Source: Pseudomonadota bacterium
GTDB lineage: Bacteria; Desulfobacterota; Desulfovibrionia; Desulfovibrionales; Desulfovibrionaceae
Assembly (NCBI GenBank): GCA_018817515.1
Contig: JAHIUD010000072.1
Location: 1-64,000 of the forward strand
DNA length: 64,000 nt
Direction: 5' to 3'
Positions 38,653 to 63,479 of this stretch are shown here, in pieces; within the stretch, counting starts at the first letter, position 1; each line of letters opens with the position of its first letter. The notes under the pieces were generated by a model. It was not told the origin of the DNA and made no database searches. It saw nothing but the letters and a program-made list of their open reading frames with translations. The position numbers and the translations under genes were made by a program.

Positions 38653-38714
38653 GTCGGAGCCCCTTGCCCCGATGCGCCATTGACCCCTTCCCGCCATGGG
38701 CGTAAAGGCGAATC

Positions 38715-38942: not shown

Positions 38943-38944
38943 CC

Positions 38945-39829
38945 ATGCCGCTGTCCCTGACCCTGGATGAAAGCATCCGCGCCCTGGCGCGTGCGGACAC
39001 GCGGCCCGACGGAGGCCAGTGTCAGGTGCTGCCCTACTTCGCCGTGCAGGACCTGGCCCGGGGCCTTGGCCGCAGCCCGGGCAACGGCAAGGGCCACCCC
39101 CACAGCAAGGCCATGGCCCGGGTTGAGCTGGCCGCCCTCGAGCTCGGCATCCTGCCGGAGCGCTACCAGCGCAACAGCACCACCTACAGCTTCACCGAGC
39201 AGATCCGCCTGCTCACCTCGCGCGTGGCCCTGATCGGCCTGGGGGGCCTGGGCGGCCACGCCCTGGAGATCCTGGCGCGCACCGGCGTCGGGCATATCTG
39301 CGCAGCCGACGGCGACGAATTCCAGCCCTCGAACTTGAACCGCCAACTGCTCTGCACCCGGCGCAGCATCAGCGGCTACAAGGCCGCAGCAGCGGCCGCG
39401 CGGGTGCAGCAGGTGAACCCGGCCGTGGACTTCGAGCCCGTGGCGGCCTACCTCGATGAGGAGCTCATGGAGCGCTTTCTGGTGGGTGCGGACCTGGCGG
39501 TGGACGCGCTGGGCGGCCTCAAGGACCGGCCCGCGCTGCTGCACCAGGCGGCCCGCGCAGGCATCCCGCTGGTGACGGCGGCGGTGGCGGGACAGGCGGG
39601 CTACGTGGCCACGGTGTTGCCCGGCGCCAAAGGCCCGTCAGACATCTTCGGGGCCGACAGCGAGGCTGCGGAGAACACGCTGGGCACCCCGGCCCCGGCA
39701 GTGGTCGCGGCTGCGGCGCTCATGAGCGCCGAGGCGCTGAACATCCTCTGCGGGCGCGAGCCAAGACTGGCCGGAGCCATGCTGGTGTTCGACCTGGAAG
39801 GCATGAGTTTCGAGCGGGTGAGTCTGTAG
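38945..39829 (+). CDS. HesA/MoeB/ThiF family adenylyltransferase
   Basis: VALIGLGGLGGHALEILARTGVG; D-x-D-x-F-x-x-SNLNRQ. Confidence 0.92.
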   Translation: MPLSLTLDESIRALARADTRPDGGQCQVLPYFAVQDLARGLGRSPGNGKGHPHSKAMARVELAALELGILPERYQRNSTTYSFTEQIRLLTSRVALIGLGGLGGHALEILARTGVGHICAADGDEFQPSNLNRQLLCTRRSISGYKAAAAAARVQQVNPAVDFEPVAAYLDEELMERFLVGADLAVDALGGLKDRPALLHQAARAGIPLVTAAVAGQAGYVATVLPGAKGPSDIFGADSEAAENTLGTPAPAVVAAAALMSAEALNILCGREPRLAGAMLVFDLEGMSFERVSL

Positions 39830-41053: not shown

Positions 41054-41129
41054 GGGCGCTCCAGGGGGGTTGCAGGTCCATGTACAACTTTTCTTTACGC
41101 CCAGCCCGTAAAAAAATCCAGAGGTCGCT

Positions 41130-41852
41130 TTGACAAATACGCAAATCATGATCCAGGCCGCCGGGGTGAAAAATCTGGCCGAGGCGCGCCTGCTCGCGGC
41201 CTGCGGCGTGACCCACGTGGGCCTGCCCCTGCGCCTGCCCGTGCACACCCCGGACGTCAGCGAGGACGAGGCCAGGGACATCGTGCGCGGCCTTGCCGCG
41301 AATCCCGGCAACACCGCGCAGACCGTGCTCATAACCTACCTGGAGGACGCCCGCGAGACGCTGGCGCTGTGCCGGTTCCTGGGCGTGGACGGGGTGCAGC
41401 TGCACGGGCCCATGCCCCTGCCGGAGGTGCGGCGCCTGCGCGAGGCCGCGCCCGCGCTCTTCATCATCAAGAGCCTGGTGGTCGGCATGGCGGGCAAGCG
41501 GGGGGGCGAGGCGGACCTGTTGGCCGAGGCCGAGGCCAACGCCCCGTACGTCGACGCCTTCCTCACCGACACCTTTGATCCTGCCAGCGGGGCCAGCGGG
41601 GCCACGGGCAAGACCCACGACTGGGACGTCAGCCGCAGGCTGGCGCAGGCCCTCTGGCAGGGGTGGGCAAAACCGCTCATCCTGGCCGGTGGCCTGACGC
41701 CGGACAACGTAGCCCAGGCCATCGCGGCAGTAAGGCCGGCGGGCGTGGACGCGCACACGGGCCTGGAAGACGCGGCCGGAAACAAGGACGAGGCCCTGGT
41801 GCTGCGTTTCGTGGCCGAAGCCAGGGGCGCGCTGGAGGCCCAGGCGCCTTGA
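41130..41852 (+). CDS. TrpF-like TIM-barrel protein lacking the canonical N-terminal Cys
   Basis: VDGVQLHG; DTFDP...GATGKTHDWDVSR; LAGGLTPDNVAQAI; N-terminus IQAAGVKNLAEA instead of xKICGI. Confidence 0.75.
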   Translation: MTNTQIMIQAAGVKNLAEARLLAACGVTHVGLPLRLPVHTPDVSEDEARDIVRGLAANPGNTAQTVLITYLEDARETLALCRFLGVDGVQLHGPMPLPEVRRLREAAPALFIIKSLVVGMAGKRGGEADLLAEAEANAPYVDAFLTDTFDPASGASGATGKTHDWDVSRRLAQALWQGWAKPLILAGGLTPDNVAQAIAAVRPAGVDAHTGLEDAAGNKDEALVLRFVAEARGALEAQAP

Positions 41853-43000: not shown

Positions 43001-45123
<2,123 letters not shown>

Positions 45124-45127
<4 letters not shown>

Positions 45128-46245: not shown

Positions 46246-46477
46246 GGAATGCCCCTTGCATTGTGCTTTCGCGGCGGCAGGAACTGCCTGCGGACGGGGT
46301 GATGCCCCGGCCCTGTGGCCTTGCTCCTAGCCCATTTCCCGGAGAAATGCGAGGGCCGCCAAAGCCGCCACGCCAGAGGCCGACCTTGCCCCAAGGGGGC
46401 ATAACGATTATATAGGCCCAAACGATAGGATAATCAGCTCGGGGCCATAGCCCCGGGAAAGACCACAAGGAGCCCCC

Positions 46478-47035
46478 ATGCGCGCGCGCATTCTGGCCAT
46501 GTCTCTGCTGCTCTGCCTGTGCTGGACCGCCCAGGCCCTGGCTGAGGCGAAGACGGCCTACACCATCGGACCGGAAGACGTTCTGGCCATCTCCGTATGG
46601 AAGGACGAGGCCCTGACCCGCGAGGTGGTGGTGCGCCCAGATGGCAAGATCTCCTTCCCGCTCATCGGCGACATCAACGTTCAGGGCCGCAGCGTCGAGG
46701 ATGTCCGCGCCGAGATCCAGGGCCGCATAGGCGAGTTCGTGCCCGGCTCCCCGGTGAGCGTCATGGCCATCCAGATCAAGAGCCCCAAGATCTACATCGT
46801 GGGCAAGGTGGGCCGCCCGGGCATGTACATCATGTTCGAGCGCATGACCGTCATGCAGGCCCTGGCCCTGGCCGGGGGCTTCACGCCCTTCTCCTCCACG
46901 GGCGACATCCTGATCCTGCGCCTGGCCGAAGGCAAGCAGCAGACCATGACCTTCGACTACGACGCCGTGGCCAAGGGCAAGCACCTGGAGCAGAACATCC
47001 TGCTCAACAAGGGCGACACCATCGTGGTGCCCTAG
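46478..47035 (+). CDS. polysaccharide export (Wza/SLBB-type) protein
   Basis: YTIGPEDVLAISVWKDEALTREVVVRPDGKISFPLIGDINVQG; signal peptide. Confidence 0.93.
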   Translation: MRARILAMSLLLCLCWTAQALAEAKTAYTIGPEDVLAISVWKDEALTREVVVRPDGKISFPLIGDINVQGRSVEDVRAEIQGRIGEFVPGSPVSVMAIQIKSPKIYIVGKVGRPGMYIMFERMTVMQALALAGGFTPFSSTGDILILRLAEGKQQTMTFDYDAVAKGKHLEQNILLNKGDTIVVP

Positions 47036-47057
47036 CCACCGGACGGAAAAGCACTGC

Positions 47058-48227
47058 ATGTCGAGACAAACCGCATACGCACCCCGCACGCCCCTGGCTC
47101 TAGTCCTGGCCGGACTGGTCCTGGCCGGCCTGGGCGTCCTCGCCCGGCCAGGCGGCGCCCTGGCCTGGGAGACCGTCAAGGTCATGCCCACCATCTCCGT
47201 GCGTGAGACCTACGACAGCAACGTCAACTTCATGGGCAAGGGCGACTTCGAGAGCAGCGCAACGCCCGGCGTGCGCGTGGACGTGAAGCAGGAGCGCATG
47301 CGCGGCTGGGTCGTGGCCAAGGGCACTGCCTACAAGTACCTGCGCTTAAACGACTTCGACCGCATCGACCAGAACTACGAGGCAGGCATCGAGGTCAACG
47401 CCACGGAGAAGATCACCGCCAACCTGAAGGGCGGCATCATAGCCGACCACGCCTTCGGTTCCGCCCTGGACGAGACCGGCGAGCAGGCCCCGCGCAGGTC
47501 CTCACGGCAGGTGTACAGCATCAAGCCGAGCCTGACCCTGACCCTGGACGAGACCAACAGCCTGACCCTCTTTCATGCCTTCACCAAGACGGAATACGAC
47601 ACCAAAGACTACACCGACAGCATGAGCAACACCCTGGGCGGACTCTGGGGCCATCGCCTGAATGAGCGCACCCAGCTTTTGCTCCAGCTCTCCGGCTCCA
47701 TGGCCAGCACCCCCAGCGCGACCCAGGACAGCGTGTCCGGCATGGCCGGCTTCGAGTACGCCCTGGCCGAGACCGTCAAGGCCCGCGTGCTCGGCGGCGC
47801 AAGCTCCTTGCGCTCCAAGGTCGACGGACAGGAATCGCGCAAGGCCACCAGCTACGCCGCCGACACCTCGCTGGAGTGGCGGCTTGAGAAGCTGACCACC
47901 ACTGCCGCCTACAGCCGGGACATGACGCTGGGCATCACCGGCGATGACCTGGTGCGCGACAGGCTCTCCCTGAACCTCGCCCTGCGGACCACCGAGCGCC
48001 TGCGCCTGCTCCTGAACGGCAACATGGTGCTCTCAGAGAACACCTCCTCGGCCCAAAGCGCGCAGAAAAACCGCTGGACGGAGATATCGCCCGGCGCCTC
48101 GTACCAGGTGGGCGAAAACTCCTCCATGACCCTGGGCTACGCCTACGGTTCCTCCGAGGACAGGCTGAAGGACGAGACCAAGACGCGCAACCGGGTCTAC
48201 CTGGACTTCAGCATCGCCTTCCCCTAG
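47058..48227 (+). CDS. outer-membrane beta-barrel protein of PEP-CTERM-associated type (TIGR03016-like)
   Basis: TISVRETYDSNVNFMGKGDFESSATPGVRVD; repetitive amphipathic strands; terminal aromatic residue; gene order. Confidence 0.75.
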   Translation: MSRQTAYAPRTPLALVLAGLVLAGLGVLARPGGALAWETVKVMPTISVRETYDSNVNFMGKGDFESSATPGVRVDVKQERMRGWVVAKGTAYKYLRLNDFDRIDQNYEAGIEVNATEKITANLKGGIIADHAFGSALDETGEQAPRRSSRQVYSIKPSLTLTLDETNSLTLFHAFTKTEYDTKDYTDSMSNTLGGLWGHRLNERTQLLLQLSGSMASTPSATQDSVSGMAGFEYALAETVKARVLGGASSLRSKVDGQESRKATSYAADTSLEWRLEKLTTTAAYSRDMTLGITGDDLVRDRLSLNLALRTTERLRLLLNGNMVLSENTSSAQSAQKNRWTEISPGASYQVGENSSMTLGYAYGSSEDRLKDETKTRNRVYLDFSIAFP

Positions 48228-48271
48228 GCGACACAACGCACCGGCGCCCGCAAGGGCGCAGACCAAAGGAC

Positions 48272-50020
48272 ATGAGCATGCAGGCCAAGGCCGACATCAG
48301 AACCTACATCCAGATCGCCAGGCGCAGGCGCTACCAGATCCTGGTGCCAGCCCTGGTCATCTTCACGCTGAGCGTGCTGCTGGCCCTGCTCTTGCCGCCG
48401 GTCTACCGCTCCACGGCCACCGTGCTCATCGAGACACAGAACGTCTCCAAGGACTTCCTCCAGACCACCGTGTCCGGCTATGTGGAGCAGCGCCTGCAGT
48501 CCATCTCCCAGGTGGTGCTCGGGCGCGTGAATCTCATGAGCCTCATCAAGAAGATGGAGCTCTACACCGACCTGAAGGAAATGTTCACGGCGGAAGAGAT
48601 CGTTGCCAAGATGCAGAAGGATATCATCCTCGAGCCCGTGCAGACCGAAGTCAACAACCCCAGCGGCGGTCGCAGCGGCCCGGCCACCATCGCCTTCAAT
48701 ATCTCCTACGAGGGCCGCAACCCGAACAAGGTGGCCGAGGTGGCCAGCGAGCTGGCCTCCCTGTTCCTGCAAGAGAACCTGAAGTCCCGCGAGGAGACCG
48801 CCAAGGCCACCGTGGATTTTCTGGAAAAGCAGCTCGAAGACATCCGCCAGGAGATGCTGACCCTGGAAGGCAAAATTTCGGTGTTCAAGGAAGAGCACCT
48901 CACCGAGCTGCCCGAACTCATGCAGCTCAACATGCAGACCATGGAGAAGCTCGAGAAGGACAAGGCCAACCTCCAGGAGAACATCCGCTCGCTGCAGACG
49001 CGCAACGTCTACCTCGAAGGCCAGCTCGCCACCATCGACCCGCACCTGAGCGGGGGCGGAGGCGAGGGCCAGCGCATGGGCTCCCCGCGCGAGGAAAAGG
49101 AACGCCTGCGCCGCCGCTACATGTCCCTCAAGGCGACCTTGAGCGAGCAGCACCCGGACGTGGTCAAGGCCAAGCGCGAGTATGAGGCCGCGGGCAAGGA
49201 ACTCGGCGGCGGCCAGGACAACCGCTTCCTGGCCGAAGCCATCAAGGAGAAGCAGGCGCGCCTGGCCAGACTCTCCGAGACCTTGTCGGACAAGCACCCC
49301 GACGTGCTGGCCCTGAAGCGCGAGATAAGCGAACTGGAAAAGGCCCGGCAGGACACGCCCAAGGCTTCCTCGGCCTCGGCGGACGACGCCTCCAACCCGG
49401 CCTACATCAACATCAAGACCCAGATCGTCTCCACCGGCATGGAGATCCGCCGCGCCCAGTCCGACCTTGGACGCATAAGCTCGCTGCAGGCCGAATACCA
49501 GCGCCGCCTGGAGGGCACGCCCAGGGTCGAGCAGGAGTACCAGTCGCTCAACCGCGACTACGAGAGCGCCAAGCTCAAGTACAACGAGCTGGCCAACCGC
49601 GTCATGGCCGCCCGCGAATCAAAGGGGCTGGAGGAAAGCCAGATCGGCGACAAGTTCACGCTCATCGCCCCGCCCCTGGTGCCCGAAAAGCCCGTGAAGC
49701 CGCAGCGCATGCTGATCATCCTGGCCGGGTTCGTCCTGGCCCTCGGCTCCGGCGGCGGCCTGGCCATGCTGCTGGAGGCCCTGGACCAGAGCGTCTCGAC
49801 CCCGGAGGACCTGGCCGCCCTCACGGGCAGGCCGCCCCTGGCAGCCATCCCCTATCTGCCCACCCCGGCGGAGCTCAAGGCCAAGTCCAGGCGCAAGCGC
49901 ATCATCCTCGCGGTCATCGCAGGCGGCTTCGTGGGCCTGCTGTTGCTGGCGCACTTCTTCTTCATGCCGCTCGACCTGCTGCTCCTTGGGCTTTCCCGCC
50001 GGATGAGCGCCATATTCTAA
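48272..50020 (+). CDS. exopolysaccharide chain-length determinant (Wzz/GumC family)
   Basis: N-terminal TM, coiled coil, C-terminal TM with extra helices; YRSTATVLIETQNV. Confidence 0.88.
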   Translation: MSMQAKADIRTYIQIARRRRYQILVPALVIFTLSVLLALLLPPVYRSTATVLIETQNVSKDFLQTTVSGYVEQRLQSISQVVLGRVNLMSLIKKMELYTDLKEMFTAEEIVAKMQKDIILEPVQTEVNNPSGGRSGPATIAFNISYEGRNPNKVAEVASELASLFLQENLKSREETAKATVDFLEKQLEDIRQEMLTLEGKISVFKEEHLTELPELMQLNMQTMEKLEKDKANLQENIRSLQTRNVYLEGQLATIDPHLSGGGGEGQRMGSPREEKERLRRRYMSLKATLSEQHPDVVKAKREYEAAGKELGGGQDNRFLAEAIKEKQARLARLSETLSDKHPDVLALKREISELEKARQDTPKASSASADDASNPAYINIKTQIVSTGMEIRRAQSDLGRISSLQAEYQRRLEGTPRVEQEYQSLNRDYESAKLKYNELANRVMAARESKGLEESQIGDKFTLIAPPLVPEKPVKPQRMLIILAGFVLALGSGGGLAMLLEALDQSVSTPEDLAALTGRPPLAAIPYLPTPAELKAKSRRKRIILAVIAGGFVGLLLLAHFFFMPLDLLLLGLSRRMSAIF

Positions 50021-50068
50021 CGGACACGCGAAATTAACCCGCCGACGCTGTCGGCTCTGGAAGAGCAT

Positions 50069-50863
50069 ATGAGCAAGATCACCAAGGCCCTGGACAGGGC
50101 CAAGCAGGAGCGCGGCACCCCCGCAGGCGAGCCGCAGAGGCCGCCCGCAGCGCCGCCAGCGCCGCCGCCAAAGCCGGAGCACGTCAACTACACCCAGACC
50201 CAGGTGGTGGAGCAGCCGCTGACGCCCATGAGCGCCGGACGCATGCTCTCCCACGTGGACGACCCCGCCCTGGCCGACTACTACAGCATGCTGCGCACCC
50301 AGGTGCTGCACCAGACCCGCGAAAAGGGCCACAACATCATCATGGTCACCAGCGTGGGCAAGGGCGAGGGCAAGACCCTCACGGCCATCAACCTCGCCAT
50401 CAGCATGGCCAAGGAGTCGGTGCAGACGGCTCTTTTGGTCGACACCAACCTGCGCGACCCCAAGGTGGCCGAGTACATGGGGCTGAATAACGACCGGGGC
50501 CTGTCGGACCACATGCTCGACGACGTGCCGGTGCACACCCTGCTCATCAACCCCGGCATGAAGAAGCTCGTGGTGCTGCCTGCGGGGCGGCCCATCAGCG
50601 GGGCCACGGAGATCCTGGGCTCGCCCAAGATGCGCGACCTGGTCAAGGAGATGAAGGCCAAGTACCCGGAACGCTACGTCATCTTCGATTGCCCGCATCT
50701 GCTGGACATGCCCGATGCTTTGGTGTTCTCCTCCTTTGTGGACCAGGTGCTGCTGGTGGTGGAGGCAGGCAAGACCACACGCCGCGACATCCGCCGCACC
50801 ATGGAGCTGTTGCAGGGCAAGTCCCTGCTCGGCATCGTCATGAACAAGGTTCCCAAGGACTAG
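50069..50863 (+). CDS. BY-kinase/CpsD-like P-loop ATPase of EPS locus
   Basis: MVTSVGKGEGKTLTAINLA Walker A; YVIFDCPHLLD. Confidence 0.85.
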   Translation: MSKITKALDRAKQERGTPAGEPQRPPAAPPAPPPKPEHVNYTQTQVVEQPLTPMSAGRMLSHVDDPALADYYSMLRTQVLHQTREKGHNIIMVTSVGKGEGKTLTAINLAISMAKESVQTALLVDTNLRDPKVAEYMGLNNDRGLSDHMLDDVPVHTLLINPGMKKLVVLPAGRPISGATEILGSPKMRDLVKEMKAKYPERYVIFDCPHLLDMPDALVFSSFVDQVLLVVEAGKTTRRDIRRTMELLQGKSLLGIVMNKVPKD

Positions 50864-50905
50864 CCCCGGCCCTCCCGACAGCGTAGCGGAGCGTGTAGCG
50901 ACATC

Positions 50906-52033
50906 ATGTACAACGAGTTTTTCGGATTCACCAACACGCCCTTCGACATCGTCCCCAACCCGGACTTCCTGTTTTTGAGCCAGCGGCACAAGACCGCCCT
51001 GGATCATCTGGAATACGGGCTGACCAGCGGTGCGAGCTTCATCCTGCTCACCGGGGAGATCGGCACGGGCAAGACCACCCTGGTGCGCGAGGTGCTGCGG
51101 CGCTGCGTGCCCAGTGAGACCGAGGTCGCCCTGGTCTTCCAGACCAACGTCAGCGCCGAACAGCTCCTGAACATGCTCTTGACCGAGTTCGAACTGCCCA
51201 CCCACCCCGGCGACAAGCCTGCGGCCCTGGACCAGATCAACCAGTTCCTGGTGCAGAAGTACAGCCAGAACCGCAAGGTGCTCATCGTCGTCGACGAGGC
51301 CCAGAACCTCTCGCCCGAGGCCCTGGAAGAGCTGCGCATGCTGAGCAACCTGCAAAGCGACGACCGCATGCTATTGCAGGTGCTGCTGGTGGGCCAGCCG
51401 CAGCTCAAGCGCAAGCTGCTCGACCCCGGCCTGGCCCAGTTCGCCCAGCGCATCGGCGTGAACTACCATCTCACGGGCTTAAGCGACGAGGAGACCGTGG
51501 AGTACATCAGCTACCGCCTGACCAAGTCCGGCGGCCAGCCGGACCTCTTCAGCCCCGAGGCCACCGCCCTGGTGCAGCAGGCCAGCCTCGGCGTGCCGCG
51601 CTCCATCAACCTCATCTGCGGCAGCGCGCTGCTCTACGCCTTTGCAGACCAGCAGCACACCGTCAGCCGGGAGCACGTGGCCCAGGTGGTGGAGGACAAG
51701 AGCGGCCTTGGTGTTGCCGGGCAACAGCCCTGGGAGCGCCTGACGCCGGGGCTGGAGCCTGCCGCCGCGCAGCCCCAGCTGGCCCAGGCGGCCTTCGCCC
51801 AGGCCACGGAGACCAACCAACGCCTGGGGGCCATGGAGGGCGACCTGCGGACCCTGCTCAACTCCTTCGGCTCCTACCAGGACGAGCTGACCCGGCGCAT
51901 CGAGAGCATCCAGGAGCATGAGCGCAAGACCAGCCAGGAGCTTGCCGCGCGCTGCGCGAGGCTGGAGAACGTGGTCCGCCGCGTGGCAGCGCCGCTCGTG
52001 GAGCAGGCCAAAAAGGCCAAGGAAGATCAATAG
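50906..52033 (+). CDS. ExeA-like AAA ATPase of PEP-CTERM/EPS locus (TIGR03015-like)
   Basis: MYNEFFGFTNTPFDIVPNPDFLFLS; TGEIGTGKTTLVRE; VLIVVDEAQNLSPEALEELRMLSNL. Confidence 0.9.
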   Translation: MYNEFFGFTNTPFDIVPNPDFLFLSQRHKTALDHLEYGLTSGASFILLTGEIGTGKTTLVREVLRRCVPSETEVALVFQTNVSAEQLLNMLLTEFELPTHPGDKPAALDQINQFLVQKYSQNRKVLIVVDEAQNLSPEALEELRMLSNLQSDDRMLLQVLLVGQPQLKRKLLDPGLAQFAQRIGVNYHLTGLSDEETVEYISYRLTKSGGQPDLFSPEATALVQQASLGVPRSINLICGSALLYAFADQQHTVSREHVAQVVEDKSGLGVAGQQPWERLTPGLEPAAAQPQLAQAAFAQATETNQRLGAMEGDLRTLLNSFGSYQDELTRRIESIQEHERKTSQELAARCARLENVVRRVAAPLVEQAKKAKEDQ

Positions 52034-52521: not shown

Positions 52522-52550
52522 TTGACATGCATCGCAGGACTTGGTTATAC
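52522..52550 (+). promoter_or_regulatory. sigma70-like promoter for PEP-CTERM-like gene 1
   Basis: TTGACA-N17-TTATAC about 45 nt upstream of ATG 52594. Confidence 0.55.
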
Positions 52551-52593
52551 GATCTATACCAAACGAGTTGATCCAGCCCATGGGGGGGAGCGG

Positions 52594-53205
52594 ATGATGA
52601 AAGCGTTGACCAAGAGCTTGGCTCTACTGGCCCTGAGCCTGCTCCTCAGTGCTCCACTCGCAGGCGGCGCCTTGGCCAGCAATTACTACCCCAACGACAT
52701 CAACACGCTGTCGACCTTCCTCTCCGGGGCGGCTTACACCCAGTATACCGGCGCGCCCCTTACCGGGGCCTATGACCTGACGCCCCTGGGCTTCGAGGCT
52801 GGCGACACCATCCAGTTCAAATCCGCCGTCGCCGGGGACGTCCTGTTCACCAACAAGAATCTGGCCGCCGAGTTCGCCAAGGGCTGGAAGACGGCCGATC
52901 TGGGCAGCGCCATTTTCAACGACCTCACCACAACCCTGAAGACGAGCGTCAACGACCTGAACAGGGTGGCGGTGCTGCAACTGACCCAGGCCTGGACCTT
53001 GAGCAGCGGCCTGACCCTGAACGCCGGCACCCTTATTCTTGGCCTCAATGACGACGGCTCCAAGGACGGCGACTTCGACGACTTCATCCTCGCCGCCAAG
53101 GCCGCGCCCACGCCCGTTCCCGGCGCGGTGTGGCTGCTGGGCAGCGGGCTGCTCGGCATCATGGGCTTCAAGCGCACGCGCAAGGCCCTCGCGGTCCAGT
53201 CTTAA
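52594..53205 (+). CDS. secreted protein 1 with PEP-CTERM-like (VPGAVW) sorting signal
   Basis: Signal peptide; C-terminal PTPVPGAVWLLGSGLLGIMGFKRTRK. Confidence 0.85.
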   Translation: MMKALTKSLALLALSLLLSAPLAGGALASNYYPNDINTLSTFLSGAAYTQYTGAPLTGAYDLTPLGFEAGDTIQFKSAVAGDVLFTNKNLAAEFAKGWKTADLGSAIFNDLTTTLKTSVNDLNRVAVLQLTQAWTLSSGLTLNAGTLILGLNDDGSKDGDFDDFILAAKAAPTPVPGAVWLLGSGLLGIMGFKRTRKALAVQS

Positions 53206-53225
53206 AGAGAATGGCGGAGAGGAAT

Positions 53226-53846
53226 ATGCGCGGATTGAAGAAATGGATCGGCACAGCGGCCCTGCTTGCCGCGCTGACTCTTGGAGCCTTTGCCGAGGCC
53301 CAAGCCAGCTACACCACTCCCGCAGACTGGTATCCCTACGACATCACGGACCTCAAGACCTTCATGAAGGGCGCGAAGTATGCGGACGTCTCCGGCACTG
53401 CGCTCAGCGGCGTGTATAATGTCACCGCCCTGGCCTACCAGTCCTACCTCACCGACCAGTTCCGCGACTCCAGCAAGGACGTGTTGTTCACCAACAACCT
53501 GACCTCCGGCTACGGCACCAAAACCGCTGACCTGACCAGCGCCAGCTTCCGCACCACCGGCCTGTACGGCAATGCCAACCTCGACTTCGTCACCCTGCTG
53601 ACGGATGCGACCCGGGTCCATATTTACGAACTGACCAAGGACTGGGCCCAGATGGGGCTGACCGCCGGCACCCTGATCATCGGCATGAACGATGACGGCA
53701 TAAAGAACGCCTGCACCGACGATTTTGACGACTTCATCCTGGCCGCGTCCAAGGCCGCGCCCACGCCCGTTCCTGGTGCCGTGTGGCTGCTCGGCAGCGG
53801 CCTGCTGGGCATGATGGGCTTTAAGCGGGCACGCAAGAAGGCCTGA
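53226..53846 (+). CDS. secreted protein 2 with PEP-CTERM-like sorting signal (paralog of protein 1)
   Basis: Signal peptide; PTPVPGAVWLLGSGLLGMMGFKRARKKA; body similar to 52594-53205. Confidence 0.85.
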   Translation: MRGLKKWIGTAALLAALTLGAFAEAQASYTTPADWYPYDITDLKTFMKGAKYADVSGTALSGVYNVTALAYQSYLTDQFRDSSKDVLFTNNLTSGYGTKTADLTSASFRTTGLYGNANLDFVTLLTDATRVHIYELTKDWAQMGLTAGTLIIGMNDDGIKNACTDDFDDFILAASKAAPTPVPGAVWLLGSGLLGMMGFKRARKKA

Positions 53847-53933: not shown

Positions 53934-54527
53934 ATGAGCGATATGAAGAAAGCACTGGTCACCACATGCCTGAGTCTCGTGATGCTTCTGGCCGTCGCCG
54001 CCAGCGGCTACGCCTCTGTCTGGACCGCCACCGACGGCGTCGGCACGACCTACGTCAAGCCCACCAGCCTGACGCCGGGGTCCAACGCCTGGAGCAGCGG
54101 CCCGGTGGAAGTGAGCGCTTCTGCCCTCGCAGGCCTGTCGAATCTCCTGTTCACCTTTGACTACATCGCGGTGGGCTCCTGGGACAGCGTGGCTGGCACC
54201 AAGCCGGACAAGCAGGCGACCGTTGACCACTTCTTCGTCAGCATCTTCAACGGTGTCGACACGTTGACGTATGAAAGCATCGTGGACCAGAACCTGCCCA
54301 CCGACTCGCAGGCCGTGCACCTGGAATACCTGCTGCCGAAGATCGCCGGAACGTACGTCTTCCAGGCCATCGGCCAGATGACCGCCACCGACGAGAAGTG
54401 GATACTCTCCGGCGCTTCGCTGGGCTCCAGCTCCACCCCGACCCCGGTCCCCGGCGCGGTGTGGATGCTCGGCAGCGGCCTTCTGGGCCTCATGGGCTTC
54501 AAGCGCGCGCGCAAGAACGCCGCCTAG
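53934..54527 (+). CDS. secreted protein 3 with PEP-CTERM-like sorting signal
   Basis: Signal peptide; TPTPVPGAVWMLGSGLLGLMGFKRARKNAA; divergent body. Confidence 0.85.
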   Translation: MSDMKKALVTTCLSLVMLLAVAASGYASVWTATDGVGTTYVKPTSLTPGSNAWSSGPVEVSASALAGLSNLLFTFDYIAVGSWDSVAGTKPDKQATVDHFFVSIFNGVDTLTYESIVDQNLPTDSQAVHLEYLLPKIAGTYVFQAIGQMTATDEKWILSGASLGSSSTPTPVPGAVWMLGSGLLGLMGFKRARKNAA

Positions 54528-54538
54528 ATTGTTTTTCC

Positions 54539-54585
54539 TCCGGCCATGGCCCCGGGAGCGGTGCTCCCAGAAGGTCATGGCCGGA
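54539..54585. other. nested two-tier hairpin
   Basis: Outer TCCGGCCATG/CATGGCCGGA, inner GGGAGC-ggt-GCTCCC; no T-tail on + strand. Confidence 0.65.
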
Positions 54586-54656: not shown

Positions 54657-55145
54657 GTGAAGCTGAACAAAGACGTCACCATCTGCTTTCGCACCAGCGC
54701 GAAACTCCAGGCAGGCTTGAAGGCTGCGGCAGAACGTGAGCAGCTCAACGTTTCCGGCCTCATCAACTCCCTGCTGACCGACTTCCTCAACGCCAAGACC
54801 GGCAGCGACAAGCGTCGCCACAACCGCAAGGACGCCAGCATTCCGGTTATCATCAATGGCGAGACCACCACCGGCACGGTGCTGCTTACAGGCACCATCC
54901 AGGATGTCTCCCTTGGCGGCGTGCGCATCGCCATCCCCAAGCACGAGCAGGCCACCCTGGTCATCAACGCACAGGCCAGCAATTTCGAGATCGTCTTCCG
55001 CCTGCCTGATGGCAGCACCCGCCCGGTCAGCATGACCTGCAAGCCCTCCCGTGTGAGCAAGGTCGGCGAAGACCTGCACATTGGCGCGGCCTTCCAGGAC
55101 GGCGACCTGCAAAGCTACTTCGAGATCCAGAGCTTCCTGATGTAG
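54657..55145 (+). CDS. ribbon-helix-helix / PilZ fusion protein
   Basis: N-terminal VTICFRTSAKLQAGLKAAAEREQLNVSGLINSLLTDFL (RHH-like); PilZ motifs RRHNR (RxxxR) and DVSLGG (DxSxxG). Confidence 0.75.
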   Translation: MKLNKDVTICFRTSAKLQAGLKAAAEREQLNVSGLINSLLTDFLNAKTGSDKRRHNRKDASIPVIINGETTTGTVLLTGTIQDVSLGGVRIAIPKHEQATLVINAQASNFEIVFRLPDGSTRPVSMTCKPSRVSKVGEDLHIGAAFQDGDLQSYFEIQSFLM

Positions 55146-55324: not shown

Positions 55325-56965
55325 ATGTCACCGCTGCTGCTCCTCGTCCTGGCCCTGATCCTGAGCGCCTCGGTCTCTGCGCTGCTGGTCCGGGCCAGCA
55401 CCCACGCGGCCAAGGGCTTCATGGACCAGCCGGGCCACCGCAAGGTCCACGACCACCCCATCCCGCGCACGGGCGGCATTGCCGTCTTCGTTGGCGCCGT
55501 GGCGCCCATGCTGAGTCAGCTCGGGCTGGACCGGCTGCTCACCGGTTTTGCCGCAGGCGCGGTGATCCTGGTCATCTTCGGCATGGTCGACGACTACCGG
55601 GGTCTGGACTTCCGGCTCAAGTTCCTGGGCCAGCTTCTGGCCTGCACTGTGATGGTGCTGCTCTCCGGCCTGGGCATCCATACCCTGGGCGAGTTGTGGC
55701 CAGGGGTGGAGGTGGGCCTGGGCGCCCTGTGGCCGGTTGCCACGATCTTCTTCCTGCTCACGGCCATCAACGCGGTGAACTTCAGCGACGGGCTCGACGG
55801 CCTTGCCGGCGGCATCAGCCTGCTCATCCTGGCCTGCGTGGCGCTCATGGCCTTTTTTTCCGAGCAGCCGACGGTGCTGGTCATCAGCCTCTGCGCCGTG
55901 GGCGGGCTCATCGGCTTCCTCAGGCTCAACGTGCACCCGGCCGTGATCTTCATGGGCGACACGGGCAGCCAGTTTCTGGGCTACACCTTGGGCGTGTGCC
56001 TCATCGCCCTGACCCAGCAGCACAGCATCTACAGCCCGGTGCTGCCGCTCTTCCTCCTCGGCACGCCCCTGCTCGACCTGATCATGGTCGTCTACCAGCG
56101 CCTGGCCAAGGGCCAGAGCCCCTTTCGGCCGGACCAAAACCACCTGCACCACAAGCTGCTGCTCAACGGCCTGGACCACGCCCAGTCCGTGACCTTGATC
56201 CATGCGGGCAACCTGCTCATGCTGGCCCTGGGGTTCTCCCTGCGCTTCTCACGCGACTACCTGCTGGCCGGCATCTACGTGGGGCTGGTGAGCGCGCTTT
56301 TGTGCATCATCAGCGGCATCCGCAGAAGCTACCCCCTGCGCGTGCGCATCCAGGAGCTGCTGCACACCGGCTTCCGGGCGCTGGTGGCCGGGGCCATACC
56401 GCTTTACAGCCCCCCGGCGCTGGTGCGCGCCGCGTGGCTGATCTTCGCCAGCACCTTTGCGGCCACCTTCCTGTTTCTCCCTGTTTTGGCCGTCAACCTG
56501 GACAACCGCCTTGGCGCTGGCTTCCTGGCCGTTGCCGTGGTCGGCGCCCTGCTCTACAAGACGAGCCCGCGCTGGTTCGACCAGTATCTGCGCCTGGCCG
56601 CATACTCCACTCTGCTCGTGGTGGTCATCACCCACGCCAACGCGGAGCTCCCCGCGAGCCTGGCGAGCCAGATCGACCGGGGCCTGTTCATCGCCCTGGG
56701 CATCGCCTACTGCGCTTATGTTGTGCTCAGCCGCGAGCACCTGCGCCCGGACGGCATGGACACCCTGCTCATCGCCATCGCGGTGTTCGCCCTGTTCACC
56801 CCCATCACGGAGCGCTTCCCCTCGGCCCAGGTGGTCCTGGCCAAGACCCTGCTCGGCGGGCTGTGCATCAATCTCGTGATGAACAAGCTGGACAGCTTCC
56901 GCAGGCCCTTCGCCTTGCTGTGTCTGGCGTCCTGCCTTGCCATCTTCACGCGTTCAGTGTTATAA
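55325..56965 (+). CDS. MraY/WecA-family polyprenyl-phosphate sugar-1-phosphate transferase with C-terminal membrane extension
   Basis: HRKVHDHPIPRTGGIAVF; NFSDGLDGLAGG; FMGDTGSQFLGYTLG; PDQNHLHHKLL. Confidence 0.93.
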   Translation: MSPLLLLVLALILSASVSALLVRASTHAAKGFMDQPGHRKVHDHPIPRTGGIAVFVGAVAPMLSQLGLDRLLTGFAAGAVILVIFGMVDDYRGLDFRLKFLGQLLACTVMVLLSGLGIHTLGELWPGVEVGLGALWPVATIFFLLTAINAVNFSDGLDGLAGGISLLILACVALMAFFSEQPTVLVISLCAVGGLIGFLRLNVHPAVIFMGDTGSQFLGYTLGVCLIALTQQHSIYSPVLPLFLLGTPLLDLIMVVYQRLAKGQSPFRPDQNHLHHKLLLNGLDHAQSVTLIHAGNLLMLALGFSLRFSRDYLLAGIYVGLVSALLCIISGIRRSYPLRVRIQELLHTGFRALVAGAIPLYSPPALVRAAWLIFASTFAATFLFLPVLAVNLDNRLGAGFLAVAVVGALLYKTSPRWFDQYLRLAAYSTLLVVVITHANAELPASLASQIDRGLFIALGIAYCAYVVLSREHLRPDGMDTLLIAIAVFALFTPITERFPSAQVVLAKTLLGGLCINLVMNKLDSFRRPFALLCLASCLAIFTRSVL

Positions 56966-57007
56966 ATCTACTGGATAGGACATCAATAAAGACGCAGGAG
57001 TTCTTCC

Positions 57008-59398
57008 TTGAAAAAAGCCCTCCACCTCCTGGCCCTGACCGCGTTGTGCCTGGCCCTGCTGGCCTGCGGCTCCTCCCAGGACCGCCGCGACTCCTTCTAT
57101 GCCAAAGCCCAGCAGCTCGAAGCCGAGGGCAAGCACCAGGAGGCCCAGGTCGAACTCAAGAACGCCATCAAGATCGATCCCAAGTTCGCCAAAGGCTATT
57201 CACTCCTGGGCAGCGTGCAACTGCAGGAACGCAACTGGCCCGGCGCCTTCTCCAGCTTCCAGCGGGCGGCGGAACTCGACCCCGAGGACTTGAGCGCCCA
57301 GCTTGGCATGTGCAAGCTCTACCTCATGACGCGCAACCTGGACAAAGCCGAGGCCAAGGCCGACCTTATCCTGGCCAAACAGCCCGGGCATGTGGAGGCG
57401 GGCGTCATCAAGTCCATCGCCCTGACCAAGCAGGACCGCGTGCCCGAGGCCCTGGCCATGCTGGAGAAGCTGCAACAGGCCAACCCGGACAACCCCGACG
57501 TGTTCATCGCGCGCAGCGAGGCCTACTCGGCCAAGAAGGACATGCCCGCCGCCGAGCAGGTGCTGCTCCAGGGCCTGGAAAAGAACCCCAAGCACCTGCT
57601 GCTGAACCTGCAGCTCGCCAACCTCTACTCACACGAGGGGCGCAAGGACGAGGCCGAAAAACGCTTCAGCGACATCGTGGCCCTGGACCCGAACAACGCC
57701 GCCGCCAACATGCTGCTGGTGAACTTCTATTTCCAGTCCGGCCAGCAGGACAAGGCCACCCAGGCCCTATCGGTCCTGGCGCAGCGCTATCCCAAGGAAG
57801 CCAGCTACCGCATCTCCCAGGCCCAGTCGGCCATGGCCGCTGGCAAGCCCGCCGAGGCCGAGGGCATCCTGACCAACGGCCTCAAGGACATTCCGGACTC
57901 AAACGAGCTGCGCCTGGCCCTGGCCGAGCAGTACCTGCGCTCCGGCCAGTTCGCCAAGGTGGAGCCCGTGGTCCAGGTGATGATCGACCGCGACCCCAAC
58001 CACCCGCAGACCGTGACCGCGCGCCGGCTCCTGGCCAACGCCTACCTGGCCGCGCAGCAGCCGGACAAGGCCCGGGTCCAGCTCGACGCGCTGTTCAAAC
58101 GCAACCCCAGGGACACCGAGGGCCGCCTCATCGCGGGCGCGCTGGACATGCAGACCGGCAAGACCCGCGAGGCCATCGTGGCCCTGCGCGAGGTGGTCGA
58201 CGCCGATCCGAAGAACCTTCGCGGCGCGGAGCTTTTGGCCCGCGCGCACATCAAGAACAATGAGCCCGCCCTGGCCGAGACCGTGCTGACCAAGTTCGTG
58301 GCCGACAACCCGGAAAACAGCCAGGCGCGCATGATGCTGGCCGAGACCCTGCTGGGCCTGGGCAAGACCGAACGCGCCCTGAGCGAGCTTTCCTCCATGG
58401 CCGGGCCGGAGCAAAAGAACCCGGCCGTGTTCCTGGCCATGGGCGACATGTACGCCCAGAAGCAGAACATCGGCGCGGCCAAAAACGCCTACAAGCGCGC
58501 CACTGAGGTCGCGCCCAAGGACCCCGCCGCATACGTCAAGCTCGGCCGCCTGCTCTGGGCCACAAGGGACGCGCGCGGCGCCATGGCCGCCTTTGACCAG
58601 GCTCTGGCCGTGGCGCCCGGCTCCCGCGACGCCGCCGAGGCCAAGACCGGCCTTTTGATGCAGGAGAAGCGCGCGCCCGAGGCCCAGGCCTTCGCCAGGC
58701 AGCTCCTGGCCGCCAAGCCGGACGACGCCTTCGTGCACACGCTCCTGGGCCGCATCCTGATGGACTCCGGCGACATGGCCGGGGCCGAGCAGGAACTGTC
58801 CAAGGCCGTGCAGCTCGCCTCGGACGTGCCCGCCCCGTATCACTATCTGGGCATGCTCTACATCCGCCAGGGCAAGCTCGACGCAGGCATCGGCAAGTAC
58901 CGCGAGGCCTTTGCCGCCAGCCCGGACAACGTCGCGGCTGGCCTCGCCCTGGCCATGCTCCTGCAACTGAACAACAACCGCGCCGAGGCCATCAGCGTCT
59001 ACGAGAAGGTCCTGGCCAAGAAGCCGGACTACACCCCGGCGGTGAACAACCTGGCCTACCTCTACGCCGACGGCGAGCCCAGCCCCGCCGAGCTCGCCAA
59101 GGCCCAGGCGCTGGCCGAGAAGCTCAAGGCTGTGGACGCGCCCATCAGCTACGACACCATCGGCTGGGTGCAGTTCAAGCTCGGCAACAAGGAGGAGGCG
59201 CTGAAGTACCTCCTGCGCGCCTGGGACAAGGCCAACGGCCTGCCCACGGTGGCCTACCACCTGGCTGCAGTCTACCAGGCCAAGGGCGACACCGCCACCG
59301 CGGCCAAGTGGCTGGAGAAGTCCCTGGCGGGCAAGGCGCAGTTCCCGGAGCGCGCCCTGGCCACGGCTGAACTGGCCAAGCTGCGCGGCAGGAAGTAG
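57008..59398 (+). CDS. prsT: PEP-CTERM system TPR-repeat lipoprotein (PrsT-like)
   Basis: Lipobox LLACGSS; many TPRs across 796 aa; locus context. Confidence 0.85.
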   Translation: MKKALHLLALTALCLALLACGSSQDRRDSFYAKAQQLEAEGKHQEAQVELKNAIKIDPKFAKGYSLLGSVQLQERNWPGAFSSFQRAAELDPEDLSAQLGMCKLYLMTRNLDKAEAKADLILAKQPGHVEAGVIKSIALTKQDRVPEALAMLEKLQQANPDNPDVFIARSEAYSAKKDMPAAEQVLLQGLEKNPKHLLLNLQLANLYSHEGRKDEAEKRFSDIVALDPNNAAANMLLVNFYFQSGQQDKATQALSVLAQRYPKEASYRISQAQSAMAAGKPAEAEGILTNGLKDIPDSNELRLALAEQYLRSGQFAKVEPVVQVMIDRDPNHPQTVTARRLLANAYLAAQQPDKARVQLDALFKRNPRDTEGRLIAGALDMQTGKTREAIVALREVVDADPKNLRGAELLARAHIKNNEPALAETVLTKFVADNPENSQARMMLAETLLGLGKTERALSELSSMAGPEQKNPAVFLAMGDMYAQKQNIGAAKNAYKRATEVAPKDPAAYVKLGRLLWATRDARGAMAAFDQALAVAPGSRDAAEAKTGLLMQEKRAPEAQAFARQLLAAKPDDAFVHTLLGRILMDSGDMAGAEQELSKAVQLASDVPAPYHYLGMLYIRQGKLDAGIGKYREAFAASPDNVAAGLALAMLLQLNNNRAEAISVYEKVLAKKPDYTPAVNNLAYLYADGEPSPAELAKAQALAEKLKAVDAPISYDTIGWVQFKLGNKEEALKYLLRAWDKANGLPTVAYHLAAVYQAKGDTATAAKWLEKSLAGKAQFPERALATAELAKLRGRK

Positions 59399-59470
59399 CC
59401 GCCCGTGACGCGCGGGCGCACCTCCGACGCGCAGCCCCCGCGCCAGACCCGCAGGAGCGCCCGAGAGCCC

Positions 59471-60721
59471 ATGAAGCGCATCATCTTCATCAACCGCTTC
59501 TTCCACCCGGACCTGGCCCCCACGGCGCAGCTCCTGGCCGATGTGGTGGAAGCCCTTGAGAGTGCGGCGACGGGCGCGGACCTCGAAGTGCACGTGATCG
59601 CCAGCAGGCAGTCCTACACCGACCCCAAGGCCGACCTGCCGCGCGAGGGCCGCTTCCACGGCGCCCTGGTGCACCGTTGCTGGTCCACCCGCTTCGGACG
59701 CAAGGCCCTTGCCGGGCGCGCCCTGGACTCCATCTCGTTCATGCTCGCCGCGTGCTTGCGGCTGCTGCGCCTGGCCCGCCCGGGCGATGTCGTCGTGGCC
59801 AAGACCGACCCGCCGCTCATCGCCAGCCTGGCCGCCCTGGTCTGCCGCCAGCGCGGGGCGCGGCTGGTCAACTGGGTGCAGGACCTGTTCCCGGACGTGG
59901 CCGTGAGCCTGGGCGTCATCCGCCCGCTCAGCCTGGCCCACCGTTTCCTCGGCGCCCTGCGCGACATCGCCCTGCGCCAGGCCAGCGTGAACGTGGCCCT
60001 GGGCCTGCGCATGGCCGGGCGCATCGCCGACTGCGGCGTCGCCCCCCGGCGCATCCACGTGCGCCACAACTGGGTGGACAGCGCCCTGGTGGCCCCCCTG
60101 GACCGCGCCGACAACCCCCTGCGCGCGGCCTGGGGCCTGTCGGACCGCTTCGTGGTGGGCTACAGCGGAAATTTCGGCCGCGTGCACGAGTTCGAGACCA
60201 TCCTGGAGGCGGCCCGGCTGCTCGCCAGCGATCCGCTCGCCAGCGGCCCCGGCGTCTGCTTCCTCTTCATCGGCCAGGGTGCGCGCCTGGAGCGGCTCAA
60301 GGTCCGGGTGGGCGAACTGGGACTGGCCAACATCATGTTCCAGGACTACCAGCCGCGCGAGCGCCTGCGGGAGTCCCTGGCCGCGGCCGACGCGCACCTG
60401 GTGTCGCTCTTGCCGGGCATGGAGGGCTGCGTGGTGCCGAGCAAGTTCTATGGCGTGGCGGCGGCGGGCAGGCCCACCCTCTTCGTCGGCGATGCCGACG
60501 GCGAGATAGCCCGGCTGCTGGCCCTGCACGACTGCGGGCTGACCTCAAGCCCCGGCGACGCGGAGGCCCTGGCCGCGCACATCCGCCACCTGGCCGCCAA
60601 CCGGGAGGAAGCCGAGCGCCTGGGCAAGAACGCCCGCGCCGCCACGGATGAACTCTACGCCAAGCCCCTGGCCCTGGCGGACTGGTGCGCGCTGCTGCGT
60701 CGCGTGGCCCACCAGGCCTGA
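59471..60721 (+). CDS. GT4-family glycosyltransferase (WcaI-like)
   Basis: IIFINRFFHPDLAPTAQLLADV; VGYSGNFGRVHEFETILEAA; VPSKFYGVAAAGRPTLFVGD. Confidence 0.9.
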   Translation: MKRIIFINRFFHPDLAPTAQLLADVVEALESAATGADLEVHVIASRQSYTDPKADLPREGRFHGALVHRCWSTRFGRKALAGRALDSISFMLAACLRLLRLARPGDVVVAKTDPPLIASLAALVCRQRGARLVNWVQDLFPDVAVSLGVIRPLSLAHRFLGALRDIALRQASVNVALGLRMAGRIADCGVAPRRIHVRHNWVDSALVAPLDRADNPLRAAWGLSDRFVVGYSGNFGRVHEFETILEAARLLASDPLASGPGVCFLFIGQGARLERLKVRVGELGLANIMFQDYQPRERLRESLAAADAHLVSLLPGMEGCVVPSKFYGVAAAGRPTLFVGDADGEIARLLALHDCGLTSSPGDAEALAAHIRHLAANREEAERLGKNARAATDELYAKPLALADWCALLRRVAHQA

Positions 60722-60769
60722 CCAGGACCGCACGATCCGACGCAACGCCCAAGCAGGAACAATGAGCAC

Positions 60770-62143
60770 ATGCCGATGAACGAGGCCCCCATGGAACAGG
60801 AAGCACCAGACCAGATCTTGCAGGAGCCCGCAGACAGCGGAATGAGCCTGGGCATGGTCTTTTTTGCGTGCATCCTCTTCGACACGGCCTTTTCCTATTT
60901 TCTTCCCAAAGGCTCCATGTTCCGCGTCAACGCCCTCGCCCCTGTCTACTTCCTGATCATGCTCATGAAGTACGGCTGGAGCAAGGTCATCCCCCCGGCC
61001 AAATACTGCGTGCTGCTGTACCTGTTCGTCATCAGCATAGGCATCGGCTATTTCACCATCCCGCACTTCGTTTACAGTGGGTGGCATTACAATTTCTACG
61101 GGTTCGCCGATGACAAGTTCCTGCTCATCGCCAACGCCGTCTGCGTGTTTCTCATCGGTTACGCCGCCATCGCCAACACCAGCAGCGACGAGAGCGTGGC
61201 CAAGACGTTTCTCTTCGTCGGCCTCGTCTACGGGCTCATTTGCGTCATCGCGCTCAAGCAATGGCTTCCGAACTATTTTCCAATGGATGTAAGCTATTAC
61301 GCAAGCGGCGGGAAGCTTATCAGCAGACCGGCCATAACCACCAACCAAAACTATCAGGTCTACTACCTCTTTCCGGTCATCCTGCCCCTGGCCCTGCAAC
61401 TGCGCTTCGCGCGCTCGGCCCTGTGCCTGGCCGGGGTGGCCTGCGCCGCCTTCACCCTCTTGCGCATCCAGTCCCGCAGCGGCCTGCTGGTCTTCGCCGC
61501 CCTCGGCGTCATCTGCCTTCTGGTCCCGTTCTTCTCCAGAAGCCGCGGGCGCGCCAGGTCCGTTGTCCTCTTCATCTGCTTCGCCCTCGCCCTTCTGGTC
61601 TTCTACGGGACCATACGCGAGGAGAGCGCACACATCCTGAACCGGTTTGCCGACAGGACGGAAACGACCACGTCGGGCAGAATCGTGTCCTTCCTGTACC
61701 TGCTCGAAAAAATCACCGACCTGCGCTGGTGGCTCCCCCAGGGCACCCTCGAATTCCTCAGGGGGCACCAGGTGGAGCCTCACTGCACCCCGACGCTGAT
61801 GTTCTGCGATGCAGGCATGCTCGGCCTGATCTCATGGATCATGCTCATCTGCGCACCGGCCATCGCCCTCATGAGCCGACTGATCCGGGGCGGGGCCACA
61901 GGCAAGACGGCCATGGTCGCCCTGGGCGGCATCGGCTCCCTGGTGCTCCAGCTTTCGCTCCCGGCCCACCTCAACAAGCAGGTCTGGCTCTGGGCTGGAG
62001 CCGTTGTTGCGTGCCTCACCATAGACCACCTGCAATCCAGGCCTGAGCGAGAGGCGCAGATCCCGTGGCCATCCGGACCTGAGCAGCCCAGGCCTGAACA
62101 GTCTGGGCCCGAACAGTCTGGATTTCCACCGCCCAAGGTTTAA
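60770..62143 (+). CDS. O-antigen ligase/polymerase-like membrane protein
   Basis: Polytopic, periplasmic loop, RIQSRSGLLVFAALG; in EPS locus. Confidence 0.78.
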   Translation: MPMNEAPMEQEAPDQILQEPADSGMSLGMVFFACILFDTAFSYFLPKGSMFRVNALAPVYFLIMLMKYGWSKVIPPAKYCVLLYLFVISIGIGYFTIPHFVYSGWHYNFYGFADDKFLLIANAVCVFLIGYAAIANTSSDESVAKTFLFVGLVYGLICVIALKQWLPNYFPMDVSYYASGGKLISRPAITTNQNYQVYYLFPVILPLALQLRFARSALCLAGVACAAFTLLRIQSRSGLLVFAALGVICLLVPFFSRSRGRARSVVLFICFALALLVFYGTIREESAHILNRFADRTETTTSGRIVSFLYLLEKITDLRWWLPQGTLEFLRGHQVEPHCTPTLMFCDAGMLGLISWIMLICAPAIALMSRLIRGGATGKTAMVALGGIGSLVLQLSLPAHLNKQVWLWAGAVVACLTIDHLQSRPEREAQIPWPSGPEQPRPEQSGPEQSGFPPPKV

Positions 62144-62258
62144 GGCCGTAATCCATATGCCCCCTTGGCGCAGGGGCCAGGGCTATCCCTTTGCCCCTGA
62201 AGAGTATATGTTGCTCCAAAGGACTCAGGAACAATCAATCCCAGGCGTGGAAGGACCT

Positions 62259-63479
62259 ATGCCGGACATCAAAAGCGTTCTTGTCTCCTGCTCCTCGGCC
62301 CCGGACGAAGGCTCCGGCATCTTGGCCTATGCCCAGGAGCTCAGCCTCGGGTTCAAAAAGCAGGGACTGGACGTTCATTTCATGTCGCCCACGCCCAGGT
62401 CGCGCTGTTGGCTTGAGGAGTACGGCATCCTGCACCTCGCCACGGACAAGCTGGCAGACCAGGTGCAAAGCGCCCGCAACGCCTTGGACTATCTGAACCG
62501 GCAGCACATCGACCTTGCCGTGAACAACGACAACCCGGTGCTGCAGAGCATCGCCCCGGCCCTGGCCTGCCCGCTCATCGTGGTGGGGCACCTGAACTCC
62601 ACGGTGATTGCCGCCCTGGCCTGTCACCAGCCCCAATGGACTGACCATGTCGTGGCCATCTCAAACGACATGCTCGCCAACTATGTCAGCAAGCGCAGGC
62701 TCCCTGTCCACAAATGCTCGGTCGTCCGCAACGGCATCGCCGAGCCTCCCCATGTGGCCCAAGCGGCCCAAGCGACCCAGACAAGCAACCCTGGCAGCGG
62801 CGGACACCCCCTCAGGGCGGTATATCTCGGCGGCTTCGACCGCCGCAAAGGCGGCGACCTGATGCTTGAGGCGCTGCGCCTGCCAGGCTGGCAGGAATCC
62901 TTCAGCCTGGATTGGTACGGCGGGCTGCCCGATGGCGCAACGGCCAAGCTTGGCAGAATCCCCGGCGTGCGGCTGTGCGGCAGGGTGCCCAGGGACGAGA
63001 TCCTGAGACGGCTTTCCGGCTATGACGTGCTGCTCTTCCCGTCACGTGCGGAGGGCTGCCCCATGGCGATGCTGGAGGCCATGAGCCAGGGGGTCGTGCC
63101 CATCGCCAGCGACGGTGTCGGGGCCATGCGCGAGATGATCGACAGCGGGCGCCACGGCTACATCTGCCCCCTCAAGGGGTGGCCGGAGCAGATGCTCCAG
63201 TGCGTCGCCCGCCTCAAGGCCGACCCGGCGCGCCTGGAACACATGAAGCACGCCGTCAGGCAACGCTTTCTCAGCGAGTTCCAGGTCGAACGGGTGGTCG
63301 AACGGCTTCTGGAACTCGGACGCCTGCCCACGGTGGACAGGACCCGACGTCCCGAGGTCATTCCCGTGCTGCGCTGGCACCGCATTTCAAGGGCCGAGGC
63401 GGGCGGGCCGAACCTCGTCCACAGGCTCTGTTACCGGCTTGGAATTCTGCGCACAGCGGGAGAACTGCATGTGCGGTGA
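62259..63479 (+). CDS. GT4-family glycosyltransferase
   Basis: YLGGFDRRKGGDLMLEAL; LLFPSRAEGCPMAMLEAMSQGVVPIAS; start position uncertain. Confidence 0.88.
   Translation: MPDIKSVLVSCSSAPDEGSGILAYAQELSLGFKKQGLDVHFMSPTPRSRCWLEEYGILHLATDKLADQVQSARNALDYLNRQHIDLAVNNDNPVLQSIAPALACPLIVVGHLNSTVIAALACHQPQWTDHVVAISNDMLANYVSKRRLPVHKCSVVRNGIAEPPHVAQAAQATQTSNPGSGGHPLRAVYLGGFDRRKGGDLMLEALRLPGWQESFSLDWYGGLPDGATAKLGRIPGVRLCGRVPRDEILRRLSGYDVLLFPSRAEGCPMAMLEAMSQGVVPIASDGVGAMREMIDSGRHGYICPLKGWPEQMLQCVARLKADPARLEHMKHAVRQRFLSEFQVERVVERLLELGRLPTVDRTRRPEVIPVLRWHRISRAEAGGPNLVHRLCYRLGILRTAGELHVR

Follow-up and report, generated by a model that had tools for sequence, protein, structure and literature searches.

An apparently undescribed family of ribbon-helix-helix/PilZ proteins, often encoded near exosortase genes: candidate c-di-GMP-responsive transcription regulators

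MrkH of Klebsiella pneumoniae is a PilZ-based transcription activator for surface structures that depends on cyclic diguanosine monophosphate (c-di-GMP) (PMC12564702), and CdbA of Myxococcus xanthus has a ribbon-helix-helix (RHH) DNA-binding fold that is under c-di-GMP control (PMC7156744). In this study, we analyzed a gene whose product combines an RHH domain with a PilZ domain. The gene (54657-55145, forward strand) is located in a stretch of 64,000 nucleotides, called here the window, from a bacterium of the family Desulfovibrionaceae (contig JAHIUD010000072.1), and it lies in a cassette of exopolysaccharide (EPS) and PEP-CTERM genes. An earlier note on this DNA had proposed that the protein is a c-di-GMP-responsive transcription factor. 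Our analysis leaves hardly any doubt about the two-domain architecture, and we consider that the protein is probably a one-component transcription regulator responding to c-di-GMP.

The window protein resembles MrkH in that a PilZ protein would serve as a transcription factor, and the model of its PilZ domain matches the MrkH structures. However, MrkH binds DNA by its PilZ-like N-terminal part and has no RHH domain, whereas the N-terminus of the window protein is of the RHH type; the protein is thus not of the MrkH type. With CdbA it would share an RHH DNA-binding fold and control by c-di-GMP, and CdbA was found among the Foldseek matches of its N-terminus. CdbA, however, lacks a PilZ domain, and one surface of its RHH fold is contested by c-di-GMP and DNA; the window protein possesses a separate PilZ domain and falls outside the CdbA family. 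The strand-helix-helix spacing and the sequence profile are shared with repressors of the CopG/Arc type (CopG, Arc, ORF56, PutA), but these contain neither PilZ nor any other c-di-GMP-sensing domain. AmrZ of Pseudomonas is likewise an RHH regulator tied to the control of exopolysaccharide and c-di-GMP, but it controls c-di-GMP genes and carries no PilZ domain. PrsK/PrsR belong to the same kind of locus (PEP-CTERM/EPS), and TIGR02915-like sigma54 regulators, scoring below the cut-off, adjoin RHH-PilZ members of sister clades; PrsK/PrsR are, however, a two-component, sigma54-dependent system, and we recognised no regulator of this kind in the cassette of the window. The window protein would thus resemble MrkH and CdbA as a c-di-GMP-linked DNA-binding protein, but it belongs to neither family. 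Among open-licence papers we found no description of the RHH-PilZ architecture, nor, in the literature searched, of c-di-GMP control of exosortase/PEP-CTERM biofilm loci, and the family is apparently undescribed.

The PilZ domain occupies residues 51-161 (54807-55139, forward strand), directly after the RHH domain, as the earlier note had stated. Pfam PF07238 matched these residues with an E-value of 9.1e-8 and 32.8 bits, against a curated cut-off of 22.5 bits, and Foldseek with the full AlphaFold model retrieved the PilZ structures of MotI, BcsA, MapZ and MrkH (E 8e-6). Both c-di-GMP signatures that had been read from the sequence are intact, that is, the RxxxR motif at residues 53-57 (R53-x3-R57) and the DxSxxG motif at residues 83-88 (D83-V-S85-L-G-G88). 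When 83 members of the family were aligned, R53 and R57 were invariant, S85 was present in 82 members and G88 in 77; both motifs are kept by the window protein and by 63 of 71 members. The window genome (3.6 Mb) contains ten PilZ matches, and the protein of 54657-55145 is the only one that was matched by the RHH-PilZ family profile.

The RHH domain corresponds to residues ~5-47 (54669-54797, forward strand), with a predicted strand at residues 7-12 (V-T-I-C-F-R), helix A at 15-27 and helix B at 32-47. When the single window sequence was scanned, Pfam gave no match N-terminal to PilZ. When the family members were scanned one by one, individual members matched the RHH_1, RHH_5, NikA-like and CcdA models, and 55 of the 56 matched PilZ. 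We then compared a profile of 56 family sequences with PDB. Residues 1-56 of this profile matched mostly RHH chains (CopG, ORF56, AvtR, PutA, EndoAI, MazE7, Arc and Mnt), and from residue 51 onward it matched the PilZ domains of the cellulose-synthase type (BcsA/YpfA). A family profile restricted to the N-terminus reached CopG with an E-value of 7.8e-7; the eight distinct PDB sequences that it matched below 0.001 were all RHH or RHH-like, which places the N-terminus in this superfamily by sequence profile. The profile limited to the window's own clade (A4) had no match in PDB at an E-value of 0.01, and the sequence evidence for the RHH domain therefore comes from the broader alignments.

The AlphaFold model of the full protein (predicted local distance difference test score, 85) shows an extended segment at residues 1-14, helices at 15-27 and 32-47, and then the PilZ barrel. 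PilZ structures stood on top when this model was searched with Foldseek, and no RHH protein was among the matches listed; the N-terminus was therefore modelled alone, and the same two helices were obtained. Near the top of the Foldseek list for the N-terminus there was almost nothing but RHH proteins (Arc, ORF56, NikA, PutA, CopG, CdbA and AmrZ), with TM-scores of ~0.6-0.8 and E-values that are not significant for a chain of 52 residues. Thus the observation that the first ~45 residues look like an RHH domain was confirmed by the CopG profile match, the predicted helices and the Foldseek matches. The structure prediction that the note had suggested came out in part: the helices and the PilZ barrel appeared in the monomer model, and the N-terminal strand was left unassigned, as expected for a monomer.

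The conservation of individual residues bears on whether the domain binds DNA. In RHH proteins the N-terminal strand reads DNA, and the start of helix B touches the DNA backbone. Within the window's own clade, which extends over several classes of the phylum, I9, F11, R12, S33 and I36 are invariant; 20 of its members were compared. I9, F11 and I36 fit the core of the RHH fold, whereas R12 would be an exposed residue of the strand and S33 would open helix B. R12 aligns with T8 of CopG, in the strand by which CopG reads DNA. The invariance of the exposed R12 and S33 therefore argues for DNA binding in the window's clade.

The gene itself begins with GTG, ~7 nt downstream of a ribosome-binding site (GAGGAG); its open reading frame (ORF) is at 54657-55145, as the note had given, and encodes 162 residues. 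A longer version starting with ATG at 54546 is possible in the window genome. In the ortholog at L004, however, the open frame begins just one codon upstream of GTG, so that a longer protein is excluded in that case, and we therefore retained the GTG start. The full-length identity to four close orthologs from public genomes is 75-86%. A strong hairpin lies between the last PEP-CTERM gene and the RHH-PilZ gene in the window (54539-54584, z -4.4) and in L001 (~9876-9910, z -3.9); it differs in sequence between these two species, has no T-run and is absent in L002.

The distribution of the family was then compared with that of exosortase. Among 200 genomes of the order, 57 contain matches to the family, and the N-termini of these matches align. 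Among 299 genomes of the class, 80 contain a match by any part of the protein (E 1e-8), and in 63 both the RHH and the PilZ parts were matched. Exosortase was found in 84 of the 299, namely in 52 of the 63 genomes with the RHH-PilZ family and in 32 of the 236 without it (odds ratio 30, Fisher p 3e-25; these linkage counts are uncorrected for shared ancestry). In 24 of the 52 genomes possessing both genes, they are located within 30 kb of each other on one contig, against ~1.5 expected, and the members in question fall on several distinct branches of the tree. The architecture thus recurs beside exosortase loci, where the note had recommended looking for it. The family also extends to other classes of the phylum. 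Within the genus of the window genome, 5 of 13 genomes have the RHH-PilZ gene, 3 of them together with exosortase. Two further matters concern single genomes: the incomplete genome G720 has six family matches, suggesting a lineage-specific expansion, and at G124:C1:4089413-4089893 the RHH and PilZ halves lie in two frames, apparently by a frameshift or a sequencing error.

In the window, the gene is surrounded by genes of an XrtA/PEP-CTERM EPS locus. Upstream of it are the genes for EPS export and chain length (46478-52033, forward strand), which encode a Wza-like protein, an outer-membrane protein, an XrtA-type chain-length determinant, a tyrosine autokinase and an XrtA-associated ATPase and are candidate targets. 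They are followed by three exoprotein ORFs on the same strand (52522-53205, 53130-53846 and 53934-54527) with PEP-CTERM Pfam matches below threshold (E 0.01-0.03); the third also has a floc_PepA tail match, again sub-threshold. Downstream, at 55325-63479 on the forward strand, come a WecA-like transferase, a PrsT TPR protein, glycosyltransferases and an O-antigen-ligase-like protein. The position given in the note, between three exoproteins and a WecA-like transferase, therefore holds, with the PEP-CTERM likeness at a sub-threshold level, and in L001 and L002, too, the gene has PEP-CTERM genes on one side and the WecA-like gene on the other. The exosortase gene lies beyond the window (G000:C17:69998-70744), 15 kb from the RHH-PilZ gene. 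From 45.1 kb to the end of the exosortase gene (~71.6 kb), the other functions that we recognised are EPS export, chain length, kinase, ATPase, PEP-CTERM-like proteins, transferases, flippase, acyltransferase and exosortase; the RHH-PilZ protein is therefore the only recognised DNA-binding protein of the cassette.

The neighbours of the family in relatives point to c-di-GMP as well. Using Pfam and NCBIfam at 39 loci of relatives, we found that GGDEF proteins account for 21 of the 173 genes that lie no more than two positions from a member, against 2 of 504 genes further out; for sigma54 regulators the corresponding counts are 18 of 173 and 6 of 504. Five c-di-GMP-I riboswitches, all in sister clades, precede genes of sigma54 response regulators divergent from RHH-PilZ genes. 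In four of these (L049:9115-9189, L050:9328-9402, L056:9461-9535 and L057:6700-6774), the riboswitch lies on the strand of the regulator, between it and an RHH-PilZ gene that adjoins EPS genes, and the fifth (L051:10679-10756) shows the same riboswitch-regulator arrangement. The nearest c-di-GMP enzyme in the window is a GAF-HD-GYP protein (39833-41332, reverse strand), identified by Pfam and by the motifs HDVGK and HHERWDGAGYP as a likely c-di-GMP phosphodiesterase, and a response regulator with an HD domain (HD_5) follows the exosortase beyond the window.

We propose the following mechanism. Two chains would pair via the RHH domain, and the resulting two-stranded ribbon would read DNA with the side chains of T8, C10 and R12. 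The PilZ barrel behind it would bind c-di-GMP via R53/R57 and D83/S85/G88, and this binding may shift the placement of the PilZ domain and so change the affinity or the cooperativity with which the dimer binds DNA. That the protein binds both DNA and c-di-GMP we infer strongly from the invariant R12 and S33 in its clade and from the c-di-GMP genes flanking sister-clade members; the targets, and whether it activates or represses them, are inferred as well. The most likely targets in the window genome would be the surrounding EPS/PEP-CTERM genes, and possibly a few genes elsewhere. As to the note's view that these genes are the obvious targets, the standing of the protein as the only recognised DNA-binding protein of the cassette speaks for it, and we put the chance that the EPS genes are direct targets at about even.

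Several observations weigh against a dedicated c-di-GMP-responsive regulator of these genes, in addition to the uncorrected ancestry in the linkage counts. Two congeners, G005 and G253, keep a protein of 75-78% identity in genomes without exosortase, and there the gene lies outside any XrtA/PEP-CTERM EPS locus, directly 3' of a hybrid histidine kinase that in the window (43001-45127, forward strand) precedes the EPS genes. Relatives in other classes had no recognised EPS or exosortase gene nearby. No cyclase adjoins the window gene, the nearest GGDEF gene (23610-25457) being 29 kb off, and no c-di-GMP riboswitch was found in the window or its congeners. The strongest c-di-GMP linkages belong to the sister clades, in which strand position 12 often holds D, Q, E, S or a hydrophobic residue instead of R in the 83-member alignment; the function of these members therefore need not transfer to the window protein, and they may differ from it in the DNA that they recognise or in whether they bind DNA. 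The second PilZ motif is lost in some paralogues. Furthermore, our searches of upstream regions for an operator of the RHH-PilZ protein validated no site.

How far these observations favour other explanations can be considered as follows. PilZ proteins commonly act on other proteins, and the RHH domain might be a mere module for dimerisation or protein docking, so that the protein would be a post-translational effector acting on the EPS machinery at high c-di-GMP. The changed DNA-facing strand in just those sister clades whose ties to EPS and cyclase genes are closest agrees with this explanation, as does the lack of a validated operator; however, dimerisation alone would not require that exposed R12 and S33 be invariant across classes, and we regard this explanation as unlikely, though it deserves more weight than the others. 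The persistence of the gene in the two congeners without the EPS cassette and, in other classes, its location apart from EPS genes would also suit a c-di-GMP-regulated protein that, comparably to CdbA, binds DNA globally or as part of the nucleoid with moderate specificity, rather than a dedicated EPS regulator. But the patchy distribution among genus-mates and the linkage to exosortase are unlike a housekeeping chromosome protein, and CdbA binds c-di-GMP through its RHH fold instead of a PilZ domain; we think this very improbable. More improbable still is that the protein regulates by binding DNA but has a PilZ barrel that has become an oligomerisation scaffold no longer responsive to c-di-GMP. 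Six paralogues of one related genus did lose the second motif and yet keep the RHH strand, but both motifs are present in the window protein, as in most members. A one-component regulator responding to c-di-GMP is thus the explanation that we prefer.

With regard to the operator, ATGT-N3-ACAT was found upstream of members of the window's clade, with exact matches in 7 of 25 against 0.14 expected, and in 0 of 26 for other clades. This pattern arose post hoc from pattern enumeration, its exact matches in new genomes came solely from the genus already used, with none in new genera, and likely -10 boxes partly coincide with the sites; for these reasons we do not claim it as an operator. The sequence GGCAGGAACTGCC upstream of the EPS genes was also rejected, its genome-wide occurrence being not above that of the reversed-pattern control. 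A palindrome of 17 bp, CATTTC-N5-GAAATG (46333-46349), lies upstream of the EPS genes and recurs at this position in three congeners that have exosortase, whereas four others lack it, with a pattern control of 0; it is a candidate operator, and nothing ties it to the RHH-PilZ protein.

Some loci of relatives showed further features. At L004:6854-10489 and L095:9756-13520, which are from congeners without the EPS/exosortase cassette, the RHH-PilZ gene directly follows the hybrid histidine kinase gene. Second RHH-PilZ paralogues (L048, L065, L066, L067, L079 and L080) have the strand KISFRT and a degraded second PilZ motif, and all of them except L066 adjoin a neighbour of one cluster, which was identified in L048 as a GntR-type regulator. 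At L062:11852-14799, genes for a FeeM-type N-acyl amino acid synthase and a ThiF-family protein adjoin the RHH-PilZ gene; a ThiF gene is also present in the window (38696-39829).

In conclusion, the chances seem evenly balanced that RHH-PilZ proteins are widespread, undescribed one-component c-di-GMP transcription factors of the phylum, many of them dedicated to exosortase/EPS loci, and that in several lineages c-di-GMP acts twice on one locus, through the RHH-PilZ protein and through the c-di-GMP-I riboswitch that controls the divergent gene of a sigma54 response regulator, a diguanylate cyclase being encoded alongside. If this is true, the direct reading of both c-di-GMP and DNA by one small protein would make a simple switch that is easily tested and usable as a tool. 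The family supplies dozens of natural variants for studying how the two domains communicate, and in some of them the PilZ motif is broken or the DNA-facing strand has changed.
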